The translations under genes and the position numbers were made by a program. This document shows positions 1-5,503 of a stretch of DNA of 10,099 nucleotides, one piece after another. The stretch lies in the NCBI GenBank assembly GCA_905236615.1, contig CAJORC010000018.1, positions 1-10,099 on the forward strand, written 5' to 3'. Position 1 is the stretch's first letter. Each line of letters opens with the position of its first letter. Source of the stretch: an uncultured Lachnospiraceae bacterium (GTDB lineage: Bacteria > Bacillota > Clostridia > Lachnospirales > Lachnospiraceae). The notes beneath the pieces are model-generated. The model made no database searches and was not told the DNA's origin. It saw only the letters and a list, made by a program, of their open reading frames with translations.

Positions 1-16
1 GTGAATGACTTTATGA

Positions 17-108
17 CCCGCCCCAATATGAGTGTGAAGTGGGGATTATCCCCACGAAAACACGAATATTGGGTGGGATTGTGGGAGTGCGAGGCACGGA
101 ACAATCCC
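17..108. other. Nested hairpin element upstream of etfA
   Basis: This non-coding stretch contains two adjacent structured units. The first is a long helix, 17-29 pairing with 66-77 (CCCGCCCCAATAT against ATATTGGGTGGG, one bulged C and one G-U), enclosing a perfect inner hairpin GTGGGGA-TTA-TCCCCAC at 39-55. The second is GGGATTGT (75-82) with ACAATCCC (101-108), with GTGC-GAG-GCAC (87-97) at its tip and a purine-rich internal loop (GGGA/GGA). The two share G75-G77. No T-run follows on either strand, so it is not a standard intrinsic terminator. It may be an mRNA-stabilising or processing structure between etfB and etfA, a palindromic intergenic repeat, or an unrecognised structured RNA. I do not recognise a family. 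Confidence 0.55.
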
Positions 109-119
109 TGACATCACTT

Positions 120-177: not shown

Positions 178-1236
178 ATGAGTTTAGAAGAATATAAGGG
201 TGTATTTATCTTTGCTCAGCAGGTAGACGGCAAATTAAGCCAGATTGCTCTTGAATTGCTCGGCAAGGCAAGAGAGCTCAGCAATGATATCGATACAAAG
301 ACAGTAACCGCAGTACTCATTGGCTCAGGCATCAAGAGTCTTGCTGATGAGCTTGCGGAGTACGGCGCAGACAGGGTTATCGTTGTTGATGATCCTGAGC
401 TTAAGGACTACAGGACAGAGCCTTATGCACATGCTCTTACCTCTGTTATAAATGAGTTCAAGCCGGAAATCATGCTTGTTGGCGCAACTGCTATCGGACG
501 TGATTTAGGTCCACGCGTATCAGCTCGTGTTCACACAGGTCTTACAGCAGACTGCACAAAGCTTGATATCGGTGATTTCCCGCTTCAGCCCGTACCGGGA
601 CATGAGGACGAGCAGCTTCACAAGCAGCTTCTTATGACACGTCCTGCATTCGGCGGAAATACAATCGCAACAATCGCATGTCCCGAGCACCGTCCTCAGA
701 TGGCTACAGTACGTCCCGGCGTTATGCAGAAGATCACTCCCAACAAGGGTGCAAAGGCAGAGGTTGTTGATTACAATCCCGGATTCACAGCAGATGACAA
801 GTATGTAACTATCGAGAAGATCGTTAAGGAAGTTTCAACTGTTGCTGATATCTCTGCTGCAAAGATCCTTGTATCAGGCGGACGTGGAGTTGGTTCACCC
901 GAGAACTTCAAGCTTCTTGAAGATCTTGCTGAGGCAGTTCACGGAACAGTTTCCTGCTCAAGAGCTGTTGTAGATTCAGGCTGGAAGCCGAAGGAAATGC
1001 AGGTTGGTCAGACAGGTAAGACTGTAAGACCTCATGTTTATTTCGCAATCGGTATTTCAGGTGCTATTCAGCACGTTGCAGGTATGGAAGAGTCAGACAT
1101 CATCATTGCTATCAACAAGGATGAGAATGCTCCGATCTTTGAAGTTGCAGACTACGGTGTAGTTGGAGACCTTAACAAGGTTGTTCCGGAGCTTACAAAG
1201 AAGATCATCGCTGCAAACGAAGCAAAAGAAGCGTAA
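178..1236 (+). CDS. etfA: Electron transfer flavoprotein alpha subunit
   Basis: EtfA pairs with EtfB and, in butyrate-forming clostridia, with butyryl-CoA dehydrogenase (Bcd). The complex reduces crotonyl-CoA with NADH and can bifurcate electrons to ferredoxin in the cytoplasm. The 352-residue product has the N-terminal alpha/beta domain followed by the C-terminal FAD-binding domain. RPAFGGN begins at residue 155, SGGRGVGS at 233, SRAVVDSGW near 261, and HVYFAIGISGAIQH from 286, with NAPIFEVADYGVVGD close to the C-terminus; these are typical FAD-contact segments. Length is normal for clostridial EtfA, somewhat longer than mitochondrial-type domains. Codon use is strongly biased (ATC for Ile, CGT for Arg), suggesting high expression. 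etfB and bcd would be expected just upstream, but at least 177 bp of non-coding DNA precedes etfA here. The pathway role is inferred from the ptb-buk pair facing it. Confidence 0.96.
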   Translation: MSLEEYKGVFIFAQQVDGKLSQIALELLGKARELSNDIDTKTVTAVLIGSGIKSLADELAEYGADRVIVVDDPELKDYRTEPYAHALTSVINEFKPEIMLVGATAIGRDLGPRVSARVHTGLTADCTKLDIGDFPLQPVPGHEDEQLHKQLLMTRPAFGGNTIATIACPEHRPQMATVRPGVMQKITPNKGAKAEVVDYNPGFTADDKYVTIEKIVKEVSTVADISAAKILVSGGRGVGSPENFKLLEDLAEAVHGTVSCSRAVVDSGWKPKEMQVGQTGKTVRPHVYFAIGISGAIQHVAGMEESDIIIAINKDENAPIFEVADYGVVGDLNKVVPELTKKIIAANEAKEA

Positions 1237-1246
1237 GACAATAGAC

Positions 1247-1275
1247 TTGTCTTGAATATTAGATTGTAGTATAAT
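1247..1275 (+). promoter_or_regulatory. Promoter of the candidate small RNA
   Basis: A perfect -10 TATAAT (1270-1275) lies 17 bp after TTGTCT (1247-1252), a 4-of-6 match to the -35. It starts 11 bp after the etfA stop codon and reads away from any protein gene on its strand. The predicted start near 1282 falls 2 bases before the first of three consecutive hairpins. The -35 is also the right arm of a 7-bp dyad, AAGACAA (1235-1241) with TTGTCTT (1247-1253), which overlaps the etfA stop. Confidence 0.55.
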
Positions 1276-1281
1276 ATCGAA

Positions 1282-1380
1282 ATGTATGGGCTTTGTGCCT
1301 ATGCCGCTGAGGAGACCCCCTCGGCGTGGTGCCCTGTTTCGAAATGGAGTGTGCCCTCCGGCTCGAAACAGGGCACTTTT
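1282..1380 (+). ncRNA. Candidate structured small RNA, about 100 nt
   Basis: No family is recognised. Three hairpins follow each other almost without linkers. H1 is 1284-1291 with 1297-1304 (8 pairs including two G-U). H2 is 1305-1312 with 1319-1326 (8 pairs, one G-U, loop AGACCC). H3 is 1329-1342 with 1363-1376 (14 perfect pairs, GTGCCCTGTTTCGA), with an inner GGAG/CTCC stem at 1346-1359 and TTTT after it. With the promoter at 1247-1275 this makes a self-contained transcription unit. The H2 loop (CCCCC) and H3 apex (GCCCTCC) are C-rich and could pair with G-rich Shine-Dalgarno sequences, as in several Firmicute small RNAs; that role is inference. The alternative is a complex terminator for etfA with a fortuitous promoter-like sequence. 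SRP and 6S RNA signatures are absent. Confidence 0.5.
1329..1380 (+). terminator. Intrinsic terminator for etfA and the candidate small RNA
   Basis: A perfect 14-bp stem (1329-1342 with 1363-1376) with a 20-nt apex that can fold further is followed by TTTT and then GTATATTT. Read on +, it would end transcription from etfA and from the promoter at 1247-1275. Confidence 0.75.
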
Positions 1381-1469: not shown

Positions 1470-2540
1470 TTATTCGTAGATCTTAGCTTCCTCTTCGCCG
1501 TTAAGAACACGAAGACCGCCCTGTGCAAGAGCAAGGAGTTCGTCTTCTCCCTTGTAAACGGTAACGGGAGCTATAAATTCAACTCTTTCTTTTATTCCGT
1601 CTGTGATGTAGCTTTCATAAGCGATTCCGCCGGTAAGGATGATCTGGTCAACCTTGCCCTTAAGAACTGTTGCCATTGAACCGATATTCTTTGCTATCTG
1701 GTAAATGAAAGCGTTAACAACGGTTTCAGCTTTCTTGTCGCCGTCGTTCATCATCTTTTCGCATTCCTGCATGCTGTTGTTGTGAAGGTATGCATTTAAG
1801 CCGCCTTCTCCGACAAACATCTTTCTTACCTGTGCCTCGGAGTATTTACCTGAGAAGCAGAGCTTGATGAGTCCGCCGACCGGAACGCCGCCGGCTCTCT
1901 CAGGAGAAAATGCACCGTCTCCGTCAAGGGCATTGAATATATCTATCATTTTGCCGTGATCGTGAGCTGCACAGGAAACACCGCCGCCCATGTGAACGAT
2001 GACAAGATTAAGGTCTTCGTATTTTTTGCCGATCTCTTTGGCGTACTTACGTCCCATTGCTTTCTGGTTTAAGGGATGACCTATAGCTGTTCTCGGGATT
2101 TCCGGACATCCGGAAATTCTCGCAACGTCCTGCATCTCATCAACAACAACGGGGTCAACGATGTATGAAGGGATTCCGAGAGGATCGCCTATCTCACGGG
2201 CAAGGAGACCGCCGAGGTTTGAAGCATGCTCACCCTGAACACCCTGCTTCAGAGCATCTGCAAGAGCTTCGTTAACAGTGTAAGTACCACCCGGAATAGG
2301 CTTAACGAGTCCGCCTCGTCCTACGCAGACATTGAGGGATTTAAGGTCGAAATTCTGCTCCTTAAGGAAGTCAAGAATGATATTCTTTCTGAAATCCATC
2401 TGGTCGATTATATGGTCGAACTGAGCAATCTCTTCGTTGGTATGGCGGAGAGTCTTGTCAAAAAGCATTGTCTCATCTTCGAAAACCGCGATTTTTGTAG
2501 AAGTTGATCCCGGATTAATGATAAGTGATTTAATAGACAT
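1470..2540 (-). CDS. buk: Butyrate kinase
   Basis: Butyrate kinase converts butyryl phosphate and ADP to butyrate and ATP, the energy-yielding last step of the Ptb-Buk route, in the cytoplasm. The 356-residue product matches the usual length of about 355. It has the acetokinase/ASKHA fold signatures: the N-terminal phosphate-binding [10 protein letters not shown] (residues 9-18), [14 protein letters not shown], the [18 protein letters not shown] phosphate-2-type segment near the middle, a [15 protein letters not shown] segment and a C-terminal LTGGIAYE adenosine motif. The CVGRGG and PERAG segments favour butyrate (or branched-chain) kinase over acetate kinase. A perfect AGGAGG (complement of 2549-2554) precedes the ATG. 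It follows ptb by 17 bp and ends at the terminator 1411-1445, so the two form one operon. Substrate could include isobutyrate or valerate. Confidence 0.96.
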
Positions 2541-2557: not shown

Positions 2558-3475
2558 TTATTTATTTTTAAGGTGTTCTGCAACAACTGAGGCAAGAGCG
2601 ATAGAGTTGAGCTTTGTCTCTGTACTGTCTGAACGTGATGTGAGGATAGCGGGAGCACTTGTACCGGTAAGGATGCAGCCGTTAAGGAATTCTGTCGTGT
2701 GAACGATGAACTTGTAAGCTATATTTCCTGCATGGATATCAGGGAAAAGGAAGATATCGGCATCGCCGGTGATCTTTCTGTCAAGGGCATTTTTATGAAC
2801 ACATGCTTCATGTGAAAGTGCCATATCTACTGAAAGAGGTCCGTCAACGATGCAGCCCTTGATCTTGCCTTCCTCGTTCATTTTTACGAGTTCTGCAGCT
2901 TCAACTGTTGCAGGCATCTTGGGATTAACTACTTCTACTGCAGCAAGCGGAGCAACCTTTGGCATATCGATACCGCAGGCATTTGCAACTTCAACGGTAT
3001 TGGCGATGATATCTACCTTGTCTTCAAGTGTGGGATAAGGAAGAAATGCGACATCAGTGAGGAAAAGAAGCCTGTCGATGCCTTTTATTTCGAATACACA
3101 TACGTGAGAAAGCTTTTTCTCTGTTCTTAAGCCTACTTCTTTATCGAGGATGCTCTTTAAGAAGTCTTTTGTGGAAAGAAGACCCTTCATGTACATCTCA
3201 GCACCGCCGTCGTGTACCAGTTTTACAGCCTCGTGAGCGGCTTCTATCGGATCTGTGTAATTGCGGATCTCAAACTGTGATACGTCCATTCCGAGTTCTG
3301 CAGCGACCTCTTTGATCTTTGCCTCGTCACCGAAAAGAACTGCGTCTGCGATACCTCTCTCTTTAGCTTCTTTTACTGCTGAAAGAACATTTGAGTCTGC
3401 TGCAGCAGCAACTGAGAGCTTTTTCATAGGATACTTTTTTACCTGAGCTATCAGGTTTTCAAAATGCTTGCCCAT
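2558..3475 (-). CDS. ptb: Phosphate butyryltransferase
   Basis: Phosphotransbutyrylase swaps CoA for phosphate on butyryl-CoA, giving butyryl phosphate for Buk. The 305-residue protein has the normal length and the PTA/PTB family layout: an N-terminal region with AAAADSNVLSAVKEAKERGIAD-like helix (split by family consensus AVKEA), MYMKGLLSTKDFLKSIL near the middle, then DGPLSVDMALS and FPDIHAGNIAYKF toward the C-terminus. All are characteristic of phosphate acetyl/butyryl transferases. Its place immediately before buk supports butyryl rather than acetyl specificity. AGGAGG on the minus strand (complement of 3481-3486) precedes the ATG by 5 bases. The promoter region (3514-3560) carries a cre-like site, suggesting carbon catabolite control. 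Codon use resembles that of etfA, as expected of a highly expressed fermentation enzyme. Confidence 0.95.
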   Translation of the reverse strand: MGKHFENLIAQVKKYPMKKLSVAAAADSNVLSAVKEAKERGIADAVLFGDEAKIKEVAAELGMDVSQFEIRNYTDPIEAAHEAVKLVHDGGAEMYMKGLLSTKDFLKSILDKEVGLRTEKKLSHVCVFEIKGIDRLLFLTDVAFLPYPTLEDKVDIIANTVEVANACGIDMPKVAPLAAVEVVNPKMPATVEAAELVKMNEEGKIKGCIVDGPLSVDMALSHEACVHKNALDRKITGDADIFLFPDIHAGNIAYKFIVHTTEFLNGCILTGTSAPAILTSRSDSTETKLNSIALASVVAEHLKNK

Positions 3476-3513: not shown

Positions 3514-3527
3514 TGAAAACGCTTTGT
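3514..3527. promoter_or_regulatory. cre-like CcpA operator at the ptb start point
   Basis: TGAAAACGCTTTGT matches 13 of 14 positions of the Bacillus catabolite-responsive element consensus TGWAARCGYTWNCW; only the penultimate C is G. It spans the predicted ptb transcription start (about 3525). Part of it also forms a dyad, CGTTTT (3505-3510) with AAAACG (3516-3521). A CcpA complex here would most likely repress ptb-buk. This is inference from position and sequence. Confidence 0.55.
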
Positions 3528-3541
3528 TAAAAATATATCAT
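3524..3541. promoter_or_regulatory. Weak Rex-like site over the ptb -10
   Basis: TTGTTAA-AAAT-ATATCAT has a perfect left half of the clostridial Rex operator TTGTTAANNNNTTAACAA and 4 of 7 matches in the right half. It covers the -10 and start point of ptb-buk. Rex controls NADH-linked fermentation genes in clostridia, so a site here makes sense, but AT-rich promoters give such matches by chance. Confidence 0.25.
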
Positions 3542-3631: not shown

Positions 3632-5503
3632 ATGAAGACGTTAAAGAAAAACTTTCTGCTAGTAGTTACCCTGTTTATTCTGATAGGTATAGCTGTATTC
3701 ACGCTGAAAACAGCAACTGCTGAAAAAGGGACATTTCTTTCTCTGCCGGAAAGCTTTTGCGTGAACATAAACGGAAGCGGGAATTATGTAAGGCTTTATT
3801 ATGATGAAAATCACAGTTCTGATACATGGTATCTTTTTTTACCGTCAAATACTGACAGAAACAGGTCATCGGTAGAATTTACAGGCTGCGAGAAAATAAT
3901 ATTTGAAGATATCAACGGAAATAAATACAGTCAGGAAAACGGGAAAAGTCTGGCTGAGGGAATTGAGCCGTTTGAAAGTTATTATATGGAATTCTGCGAC
4001 AAGGACGGGAATGAGATCGAAAGGCGGATATTCCAGTATATGAAGTCTGAAAATGTTGCCTCATTATTTGTAGAGACCGAATCGGGTACTATGGAAGCCA
4101 TAAACTCAGATAAGGCGAACGACGAAAGAGGGAGCATAAGTCTTTTTGGAGAAGACGGGGAATTAGAATACCGAGGCGATCTGGAAAGCTTCAAGGGACG
4201 TGGAAATACAAGCTGGGATCTTGACAAGAAGCCTTACAGATTTAAGCTTAATGAGAATATTTCTCTTTTTGGATTAAAGAGTTCGAGGATATGGGTTCTG
4301 CTTGCAAACTGTCTGGATAAAACCAATATAAGAAATAAGACTGCAAACGGTTTTGCCCGGGCAATGGGCCTTAATGGGACAACGTCTTCTAAGTATGTTG
4401 ATCTTTATCTTAACGGTAATTACAACGGACTTTACGAATTATCGGAAAAAATACAGCTGTCTTCGGGAAGTGTTGATCTGGAAGACCTTGATTATAAGAA
4501 CGAGAAACTAAATTCAAGGGCAGCTTCATCATACCCGAAAGCTGTGGTAAATGAGGATGGAAGCGGGGAAAGAGTCGGATTCAAGCTCGACAGGAATCCT
4601 GAGGATATCAGCGGAGGCTATCTGATAGAGAAGAATTATCTGGAACGCTATGATGCATCACCGTCCAGATTTACTACTGCTTCAGGGGAAAAATACTGTG
4701 TAAGGAGCCCTGAAATTGCATCTGTTAAGGAGGTCGAATATATAGCCGGTCTCATGGATGAGATAGAGAAAAGGGCGAAGACAGGGGGAAATGTGGCAGA
4801 GCTTATCGACCTGAAAAGCTTTGCGGATAAATATCTGCTTGAAGAATTTGTCGATAATGAGGCATCGGGTGCAACGAGTTCATTTTTTTACAAGAATTCC
4901 GATAAGAAAGACCCGTATCTTTATGCCGGACCGCCATGGGATTATGATAAGTCTTTAGGATACCTTCTTCCGGGAGAAAAGGATGACAAGACGAGACTTA
5001 CTTATCTTACGAATCATGGCAATGGGACAAGACTCTTTTATAACCTGTTCATGAACTGCAGTGATTTCAGGGAAATGGTTTATAAAGAGTATAAAGAGCT
5101 GATGGAGCCTGTACTCAGTGAATATATTGCAAATGAAGGCTGGAAAAATAACGAATACTCCGGTATAGATGACAGGATGGATATGATGCGCTGGACTTCG
5201 ACGCCTGAATCAACTGCGGAAGAAATAGAGAAGATAGGAGAGTTCGTAAAGCTGAGAAAAGAGCTCTTTGACAGAATCTTTAAGAAGGGTGAAAAACTCT
5301 GTACAGTGCATTTTGTGGGTGATTTTGCAAACAGGGATCCCTATTACGGATATGTGTCGGGCTCGGCTCTGGGAGAATTGCCCGATATTAAGCAGAAAGA
5401 CGGTAAGACAGCAATATGGGTGAACTCTGAGACAGGAGAAGAGCTCTCGGAAACAACTCTTGTCACTGAGGAATATATCGAGGCAGTGGTGAAATACAAG
5501 TGA
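3632..5503 (+). CDS. CotH-family kinase, exported or membrane-anchored
   Basis: CotH proteins are atypical kinases, first known from spore coat protein phosphorylation; many bacterial members are exported and of unknown substrate. Residues 8-25 are one hydrophobic segment after a Lys-rich start, a signal peptide or anchor, with TATA-EKG a possible cleavage site. Residues 35-180 form an all-beta-looking N-terminal region. The CotH domain follows: GRGNTSWD near 189-196, DKTNIRNKTA near 228-237, YVDLYLNGNYNGLYEL near 256-271, GGYLIEKN near 328, and the signature GPPWDYDKS at 433-441, where D437 and D439 are candidate metal or catalytic acids. Residues 555-623 look like one InlB B-type repeat (VHFVGDF, G..LGELPDIKQKDGK, W..SETGEEL, TEEYIEAVVKY). 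It is the first of three plus-strand envelope genes. AGG, AGA and ATA codons are more frequent than in etfA or ptb, suggesting modest expression. Confidence 0.88.
   Translation: MKTLKKNFLLVVTLFILIGIAVFTLKTATAEKGTFLSLPESFCVNINGSGNYVRLYYDENHSSDTWYLFLPSNTDRNRSSVEFTGCEKIIFEDINGNKYSQENGKSLAEGIEPFESYYMEFCDKDGNEIERRIFQYMKSENVASLFVETESGTMEAINSDKANDERGSISLFGEDGELEYRGDLESFKGRGNTSWDLDKKPYRFKLNENISLFGLKSSRIWVLLANCLDKTNIRNKTANGFARAMGLNGTTSSKYVDLYLNGNYNGLYELSEKIQLSSGSVDLEDLDYKNEKLNSRAASSYPKAVVNEDGSGERVGFKLDRNPEDISGGYLIEKNYLERYDASPSRFTTASGEKYCVRSPEIASVKEVEYIAGLMDEIEKRAKTGGNVAELIDLKSFADKYLLEEFVDNEASGATSSFFYKNSDKKDPYLYAGPPWDYDKSLGYLLPGEKDDKTRLTYLTNHGNGTRLFYNLFMNCSDFREMVYKEYKELMEPVLSEYIANEGWKNNEYSGIDDRMDMMRWTSTPESTAEEIEKIGEFVKLRKELFDRIFKKGEKLCTVHFVGDFANRDPYYGYVSGSALGELPDIKQKDGKTAIWVNSETGEELSETTLVTEEYIEAVVKYK

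Follow-up and report, generated by a model that had tools for sequence, protein, structure and literature searches.

Small RNAs of the RoxS/RsaE type are near 100 nt in size and have little need of Hfq; RsaE has an Rfam model. RoxS is described as carrying C-rich regions that pair with G-rich sequences, with Shine-Dalgarno binding on two targets, and as acting in central metabolism (PMC5419742). The sdh-suc operon yields SdhX from its 3' end, and SdhX represses ackA (PMC9438474): it is cut out by RNase E and is Hfq-dependent (PMC9438474, PMC6393394). A Gram-positive small RNA read from the 3' end of a gene is a parallel of kind only, judged by its description in the same source (PMC9438474). 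Clostridiales-1 (RF01699) is a candidate from a 2010 screen (PMC2864571).

The sequence studied here is a 10,099-nt stretch of DNA (the window) from an uncultured Lachnospiraceae bacterium (contig CAJORC010000018.1, GCA_905236615.1), whose genome is referred to as G000. To our knowledge, small RNAs of butyrate-forming Lachnospiraceae are little described. On the + strand of its etfA-buk gap the window carries a unit that, very probably, is a genuine small RNA of ordinary kind, new and restricted to one lineage; searches of open-access literature turned up no report of such an RNA in Lachnospiraceae. It resembles RoxS/RsaE in its exposed C-rich regions (the hexaloops AGACCC and UGUGCC(C)), and differs from RoxS in that two invariant hexaloops stand against the four C-rich regions described for the latter (PMC5419742). 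Nor is RoxS/RsaE among the four matches returned by Rfam at E up to 10. Unlike RoxS/RsaE, the RNA has a promoter without a Rex-like site: the best sites between positions -150 and +30 have 4-5 mismatches in 14 (seven carriers of the RNA), and one site with three mismatches lies elsewhere in the window, at 3524-3541 (0.69 expected). At gathering score none of the families in Rfam 15 matches the RNA, whether in the window or in the other six carriers, which agrees with the first-pass annotation: it had recognised no known family and had proposed this search. Of the four matches at E up to 10, the best to the region, Srn266, lies on the opposite strand and scores 26.9 bits where the cut-off is 63 (E 0.019); it was dismissed as chance.

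Like SdhX, the RNA is found where a metabolic operon ends, beside an acyl-kinase operon (PMC9438474); unlike SdhX, which needs RNase E and Hfq (PMC9438474, PMC6393394), it has a conserved promoter of its own and no Hfq was detected in the genomes searched (below), and a targeting of buk like that of ackA is unsupported (below). Clostridiales-1 adjoins the same gene – it lies upstream of etfA in the window – but does not match 1247-1380 and behaves as a many-copy dispersed repeat in the genus. These comparisons place the RNA with none of RoxS/RsaE, SdhX and Clostridiales-1, and that it works like RoxS can at most be inferred. The features of the locus are given in Table 1.

Table 1. Features of the RNA unit and of its neighbours in the window.
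Feature	Position	Strand	Remarks
etfA, electron transfer flavoprotein alpha	178..1236	+	next gene 5' of the RNA in 7/7 carriers
Promoter: TTGTCT (1247-1252), 17 bases, TATAAT (1270-1275)	1247..1275	+	from pattern scan
Predicted transcription start	1282	+	inferred from spacing to the -10
Hairpin H1	1284..1304	+	8 pairs; loop varies in length and sequence; both-side changes at 2 pairs
Hairpin H2	1305..1326	+	8 pairs; invariant hexaloop AGACCC (1313-1318); both-side changes at 4 pairs
Hairpin H3, terminator stem	1328..1377	+	apex GGAG-UGUGCC-CUCC; invariant hexaloop (1350-1355)
T-run of the intrinsic terminator	1377..1380	+	TTTT in the window; 4-8 T across the 7 carriers
buk (acetokinase family)	1470..2540	-	convergent to the RNA
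ptb (phosphate acetyl/butyryl transferase)	2558..3475	-	
cotH1, CotH kinase family	3632..5503	+	

The gap had been read at first pass as a complete small transcription unit, composed of a TTGTCT-N17-TATAAT promoter, three abutting hairpins with C-rich single-stranded segments, and a terminator made of a 14-bp stem and TTTT. All of this holds: the promoter is present and its -10 conserved, the computed fold puts H1, H2 and H3 where they had been drawn, the C-rich loops of H2 and H3 are invariant, the stem and TTTT are found as described, and the structure covaries. The promoter scores 10/12, a match that by itself proves little because the same scan returns 30 promoter-type sites in the window against 20.4 expected. 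The -10 region (TGTAGTATAAT, 1265-1275) is invariant in all seven carriers (11/11 columns), while none of the six columns between the -10 and the following AUG is. The -35 is not conserved across the seven: a -35-like TTGT(C/T)T at 17-base spacing occurs in the window, G038, G033 and G047 (3-4 of 6 positions shared with TTGACA), G043 has TGGAAA (4/6), and G037 and G039 have only CTGGCG at 18-base spacing (3/6). In every carrier the predicted start, the seventh base past the -10, coincides with the A of an AUG, so that six bases separate AUG and -10. In relatives without the RNA (L046, L051, L053 and L055) a cotH-like gene 3' of etfA starts 6 bases past a TATAAT (by eye), which suggests that the cotH-like mRNA is leaderless there; the AUG of the RNA is equally spaced from its -10.

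The fold predicted for 1282-1384 has an energy of -60.3 kcal/mol, where shuffled sequences average -32.1 (z -7.4), and none of 200 shuffles is as low. This signal is not just that of the terminator, because H1 and H2 alone (1282-1327) reach z -5.6. H3 comprises 14 Watson-Crick pairs (1329-1342/1363-1376) plus one G-U pair, and the base following its UGUGCC hexaloop is C. The intrinsic terminator formed by H3 and the T-run is found in 7/7 carriers.

Covariation was assessed in alignments of all seven carriers, two of which (G033 and G047) are near-identical. In alignment A3 (seven rows, fitted to a model derived from five of these sequences) 97.2% of cells are paired and both-side changes occur at 18 of 32 pairs; the covariation score is 0.555, against 0.285 for shuffled alignments and at most 0.167 when the partner is slid, and on each of five measures all 500 shuffles fall short. 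Pairing drops to 38-55% once the partner is shifted by 1-3 columns. Alignment A4, made with MAFFT, is an unfitted alignment of the same number of rows, paired by the window's own fold. Here 89.8% of cells are paired and both-side changes occur at 13 of 36 pairs (3/500 shuffles as high), with a covariation score of 0.362, where shuffling gives 0.225 and sliding at most 0.156; pair types are unexceptional in number (63/500 shuffles as high). A first alignment of five rows gave thin support: both-side changes at only 5 of 32 pairs and an unfavourable covariation term from RNAalifold (+1.65). Within H3, both-side changes occur at 10 of the 11 pairs of the lower stem in A3, where that of G043 is poorly aligned, and at 7 of the 20 pairs of the whole hairpin in A4. 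By comparison, both hexaloops are invariant in all 12 columns (6/6 each) against 1 of 22 columns of the H3 lower stem. The conservation of promoter, loops and pairing follows the pattern expected under selection; at fourfold sites of ptb the window is 43-55% identical to the other six carriers.

A blastn search of 99 genomes (the window's own and relatives) returned four strong homologues, all from the same genus. With a covariance model built from five sequences, the RNA was found in 7 of 48 genomes of the genus, the window's included (G000, G038, G047, G033, G039, G043 and G037; E 1.4e-37 to 5.5e-19): the -10 and the hairpins are kept in close relatives, as the first-pass annotation had asked of a genuine unit, though within one clade only. 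The remaining covariance matches were weak (E at least 0.0041), two of them being the same places on the opposite strand. A degenerate pattern run over a collection of 84,980 species recovered five stretches, all from Lachnospiraceae and including the isolates KH1T2 and MA2020; we take these to be G038, G039, G037, G047 and G043 (G033 was not recovered, and the scan may have omitted the window's own record). A conserved two-loop unit in named isolates offers a directly testable entry into Hfq-free RNA regulation in the family.

Further afield, a strict pattern matched the window alone among 397 genomes of the family, and a search of 248 genomes from other genera of the family with model R2 gave no good match (its filters were stricter, and weak matches are lost). 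Viral contigs gave no matches. When every position was scored with model R1 at 25 etfA loci, the best reached at most 14.8 bits. Model R2 was also run on 40 of the 41 non-carrier genomes of the genus, G046 being left out (it had no match in the earlier covariance search). Several candidates were examined and set aside. Two came from model R2 over 250 family genomes, where about 2.5 such matches are expected by chance, and were discarded for that reason: G138 (E 0.006), in which neither loop is kept, and G229 (E 0.01), which has the letters GAGUGUGC at the H3 apex and several broken pairs elsewhere. G011 (model R2, E 0.019) has neither loop. In G001 (L071 1236-1310, E 0.0034) a -10-like stretch is followed by an H3-like hairpin with the apex GGGG-UCUGCC-CCCC, without H1 and H2; this element is possibly a remnant of the RNA, or chance.

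The gene trees differ. In the ptb tree all seven carriers form one clade (99/99) and a single change suffices (21 of 30 loci used, nine dropped by a start-site rule; ptb was matched in 37 of 48 genomes). The rpoB tree likewise needs one change: the four placeable carriers of the seven form one clade (100/100), 17 of 20 genomes being matched and G000, G038 and G047 not. The etfA tree (32 rows from the 40 matches listed) needs at least three changes, against one each for ptb and rpoB, and etfA was dropped as the unit of inheritance. G037 holds two etfB-etfA loci of different lineages (G037:C6 and G037:C58), only one of which has the RNA; contamination of the assembly is possible. Provided that the G037 assembly is not a mixture, the single clades of ptb and rpoB, the changes in etfA and the two copies in G037 make the RNA look like a trait of the clade that persisted while the etfA next to it was swapped or duplicated.

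In all seven carriers ptb-buk is convergent and lies about 0.1-2.2 kb past the RNA. What stands between varies: a second cotH gene (cotH2), missing from the window, lies between RNA and buk on the strand of the RNA in five other carriers (G033, G047, G038, G037 and G039), a convergent STAS/APH-domain gene separates RNA from buk in G043, and the window has no separating gene. The direct etfA-buk adjacency from which the locus had originally been described is thus peculiar to the window genome. In G033, G047 and G038 the terminator directly precedes cotH2; in the window and G043 the next gene on the same strand does not follow immediately, and the RNA is intact in both. Because the window groups inside carriers having cotH2 (its closest, G038, G033 and G047, all do), it most likely lost this gene yet kept the RNA. 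For G043 a loss is not established, because the trees disagree: rpoB places it inside the carriers (88/91), ptb outside the other six (95/95). In G014, which is without the RNA, the order is etfB-etfA-cotH-cotH-ptb-buk, all in one direction. At 1415-1445 the window has an inverted repeat (CGGCAGACC...GGTCTGCCG) that is followed on the - strand by a T-run, by eye the likely terminator of buk and distinct from H3.

The reading best supported by these data, and in our judgement probably the right one, is a stand-alone gene for a small RNA that acts in trans by pairing. An RNA of about 84-101 nt would start from a promoter of its own just 3' of etfA and stop at a terminator of its own. Protection of the 5' end would fall to H1, and H3 would both terminate transcription and display the second loop. 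Contacts would most naturally be made by the two invariant C-rich hexaloops: GAGACCCC (H2) and GUGUGCCC (H3) may pair with G-rich segments of other mRNAs, ribosome-binding sites being the likeliest places, much as the C-rich regions of RoxS do. The RNA presumably acts without Hfq, which was detected in none of 10 genomes (all seven carriers included, some of the genomes incomplete; the control detected it in 5 of 14 reference genomes).

The position of cotH2 invites a different reading, in which the RNA is a cis-acting leader or attenuator: its promoter would drive cotH2, with H3 terminating or reading through on a signal. cotH2 is the next gene on the same strand in five of the seven carriers, and in G033, G047 and G038 its ribosome-binding site lies within ~10 bases of the T-run, with no other promoter noticed by eye before it; moreover, with G043 outside the other six carriers, as in the ptb tree, cotH2 may have joined later. 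Such a leader is nonetheless unlikely, because the RNA is intact without cotH2 in two carriers: the window and G043 keep promoter, loops and pairing, and the window groups inside carriers having the gene. In G037 and G039, besides, about 125-190 bases and a possible separate TATAAT intervene between terminator and cotH2, and the cotH of G014, with no RNA before it, begins right after a TATAAT. A constant place 3' of etfA (7/7), a distance of ~25-45 bases from stop codon to predicted start (window, G038, G037 and G039) and a strong terminator-like hairpin would also be expected if the unit were only the terminator or 3' end stabiliser of the etfA mRNA, the promoter having arisen by chance. However, an 11-base -10 region is invariant where the following 6 bases are not, and termination needs neither H1, H2 nor the loops. 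By eye, no other terminator was noticed between etfA and the RNA in the window, G038, G037 and G039; G043 has a separate hairpin and T-run there, and relatives lacking the RNA often have a plain hairpin in this place. In G039 and G037, moreover, the etfA next to the RNA comes from different lineages (subject to the possible contamination of G037), and we hold the terminator reading to be quite improbable.

The loops themselves could be the target of a protein. They are of equal size, both have G at position 2 and CC at positions 5-6 and are closed by G-C, and they are invariant while the stems vary: an RNA-binding or regulatory protein recognising them might be titrated or modulated by the RNA. 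Against this, no protein candidate was found, and neither hairpin has GGA, a motif suggestive of CsrA, in all copies (it is absent from H2 of G039 and from H3 of G043, with at least one per copy), so that protein binding also appears rather unlikely. Least credible, and very improbable indeed, is a leaderless small open reading frame from the AUG at the predicted +1. That AUG stands 6 bases past the -10 in all seven, the peptide begins MY(G/E)(L/F) in all seven, and the H2 loop is in frame 0 in five; but the frames run for 15, 15, 15, 40, 42, 47 and 54 codons, the copies read through the H3 apex in different frames, and the sequence changes follow the pairing of the stems.

For the pairing small RNA, four local start regions were ranked against 285 background start regions (drawn from the loci studied, with unverified ATGs and orthologues of the four genes among them; folding is ignored in the duplexes). 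C-rich loops pair to some degree with any Shine-Dalgarno sequence. Duplexes of the loops with buk rank 0.37 or worse among the 285 in six of seven genomes, the exception being G043 (H2 0.04, H3 0.19), and etfA and cotH1 never rank better than 0.20 (the best being cotH1 of the window with the 5' end of the RNA). The duplex of ptb with the H3 apex has -12.4 or -12.5 kcal/mol in all seven and ranks 0.12-0.18, and would need the apex stem to be opened: ptb is the only local candidate target, and a weak one. Its start reads ATGGGC in 7/7 carriers, and among 14 non-carrier starts ATGAGC or ATGAGT in 13 and ATGGGT in G015, an association confounded by descent because the ptb of the carriers forms one clade.

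Of the role in butyrate metabolism suggested at first pass, base-pairing with buk finds no support, while the position of the RNA between the etf and the convergent ptb-buk operons, the same in all seven carriers, leaves a link possible on that ground only. A bolder version would have a family of two-loop, Hfq-free regulators, arisen once in a clade of Lachnospiraceae, tie etf to ptb-buk through binding of the H3 loop to the ptb start. We regard it as speculative and improbable; if true, an RNA whose gene lies between these operons would set the flux into butyrate.

A separate observation concerns Clostridiales-1, which Rfam files as an sRNA gene. At E<=0.001 it has from 1 to 86 matches per genome in 11/11 genomes of the genus (G014 86, G000 2, G037 1), among them window 1-116, L092 11016-11172 and places in L145-L157. 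When 13 copies from G014 were compared, 11 differed from the first to an equal degree (131 of 157). They share the same ends, except for one base in one copy, and their left flanks are unrelated; the ends (TGATGTCA...TGACATCA) form inverted repeats, and 8-9 of the 13 have in common another hairpin-like stretch downstream. Tandem pairs lie directly upstream of etfA in G031 and G040 (L052 2597-2914; G040:C5:139785-140098), a single copy lies between etfB and etfA in G014, and the copy upstream of etfA in the window is at the contig end. In this genus Clostridiales-1 appears to be a mobile repeat scattered over intergenic regions, and not a single sRNA gene.
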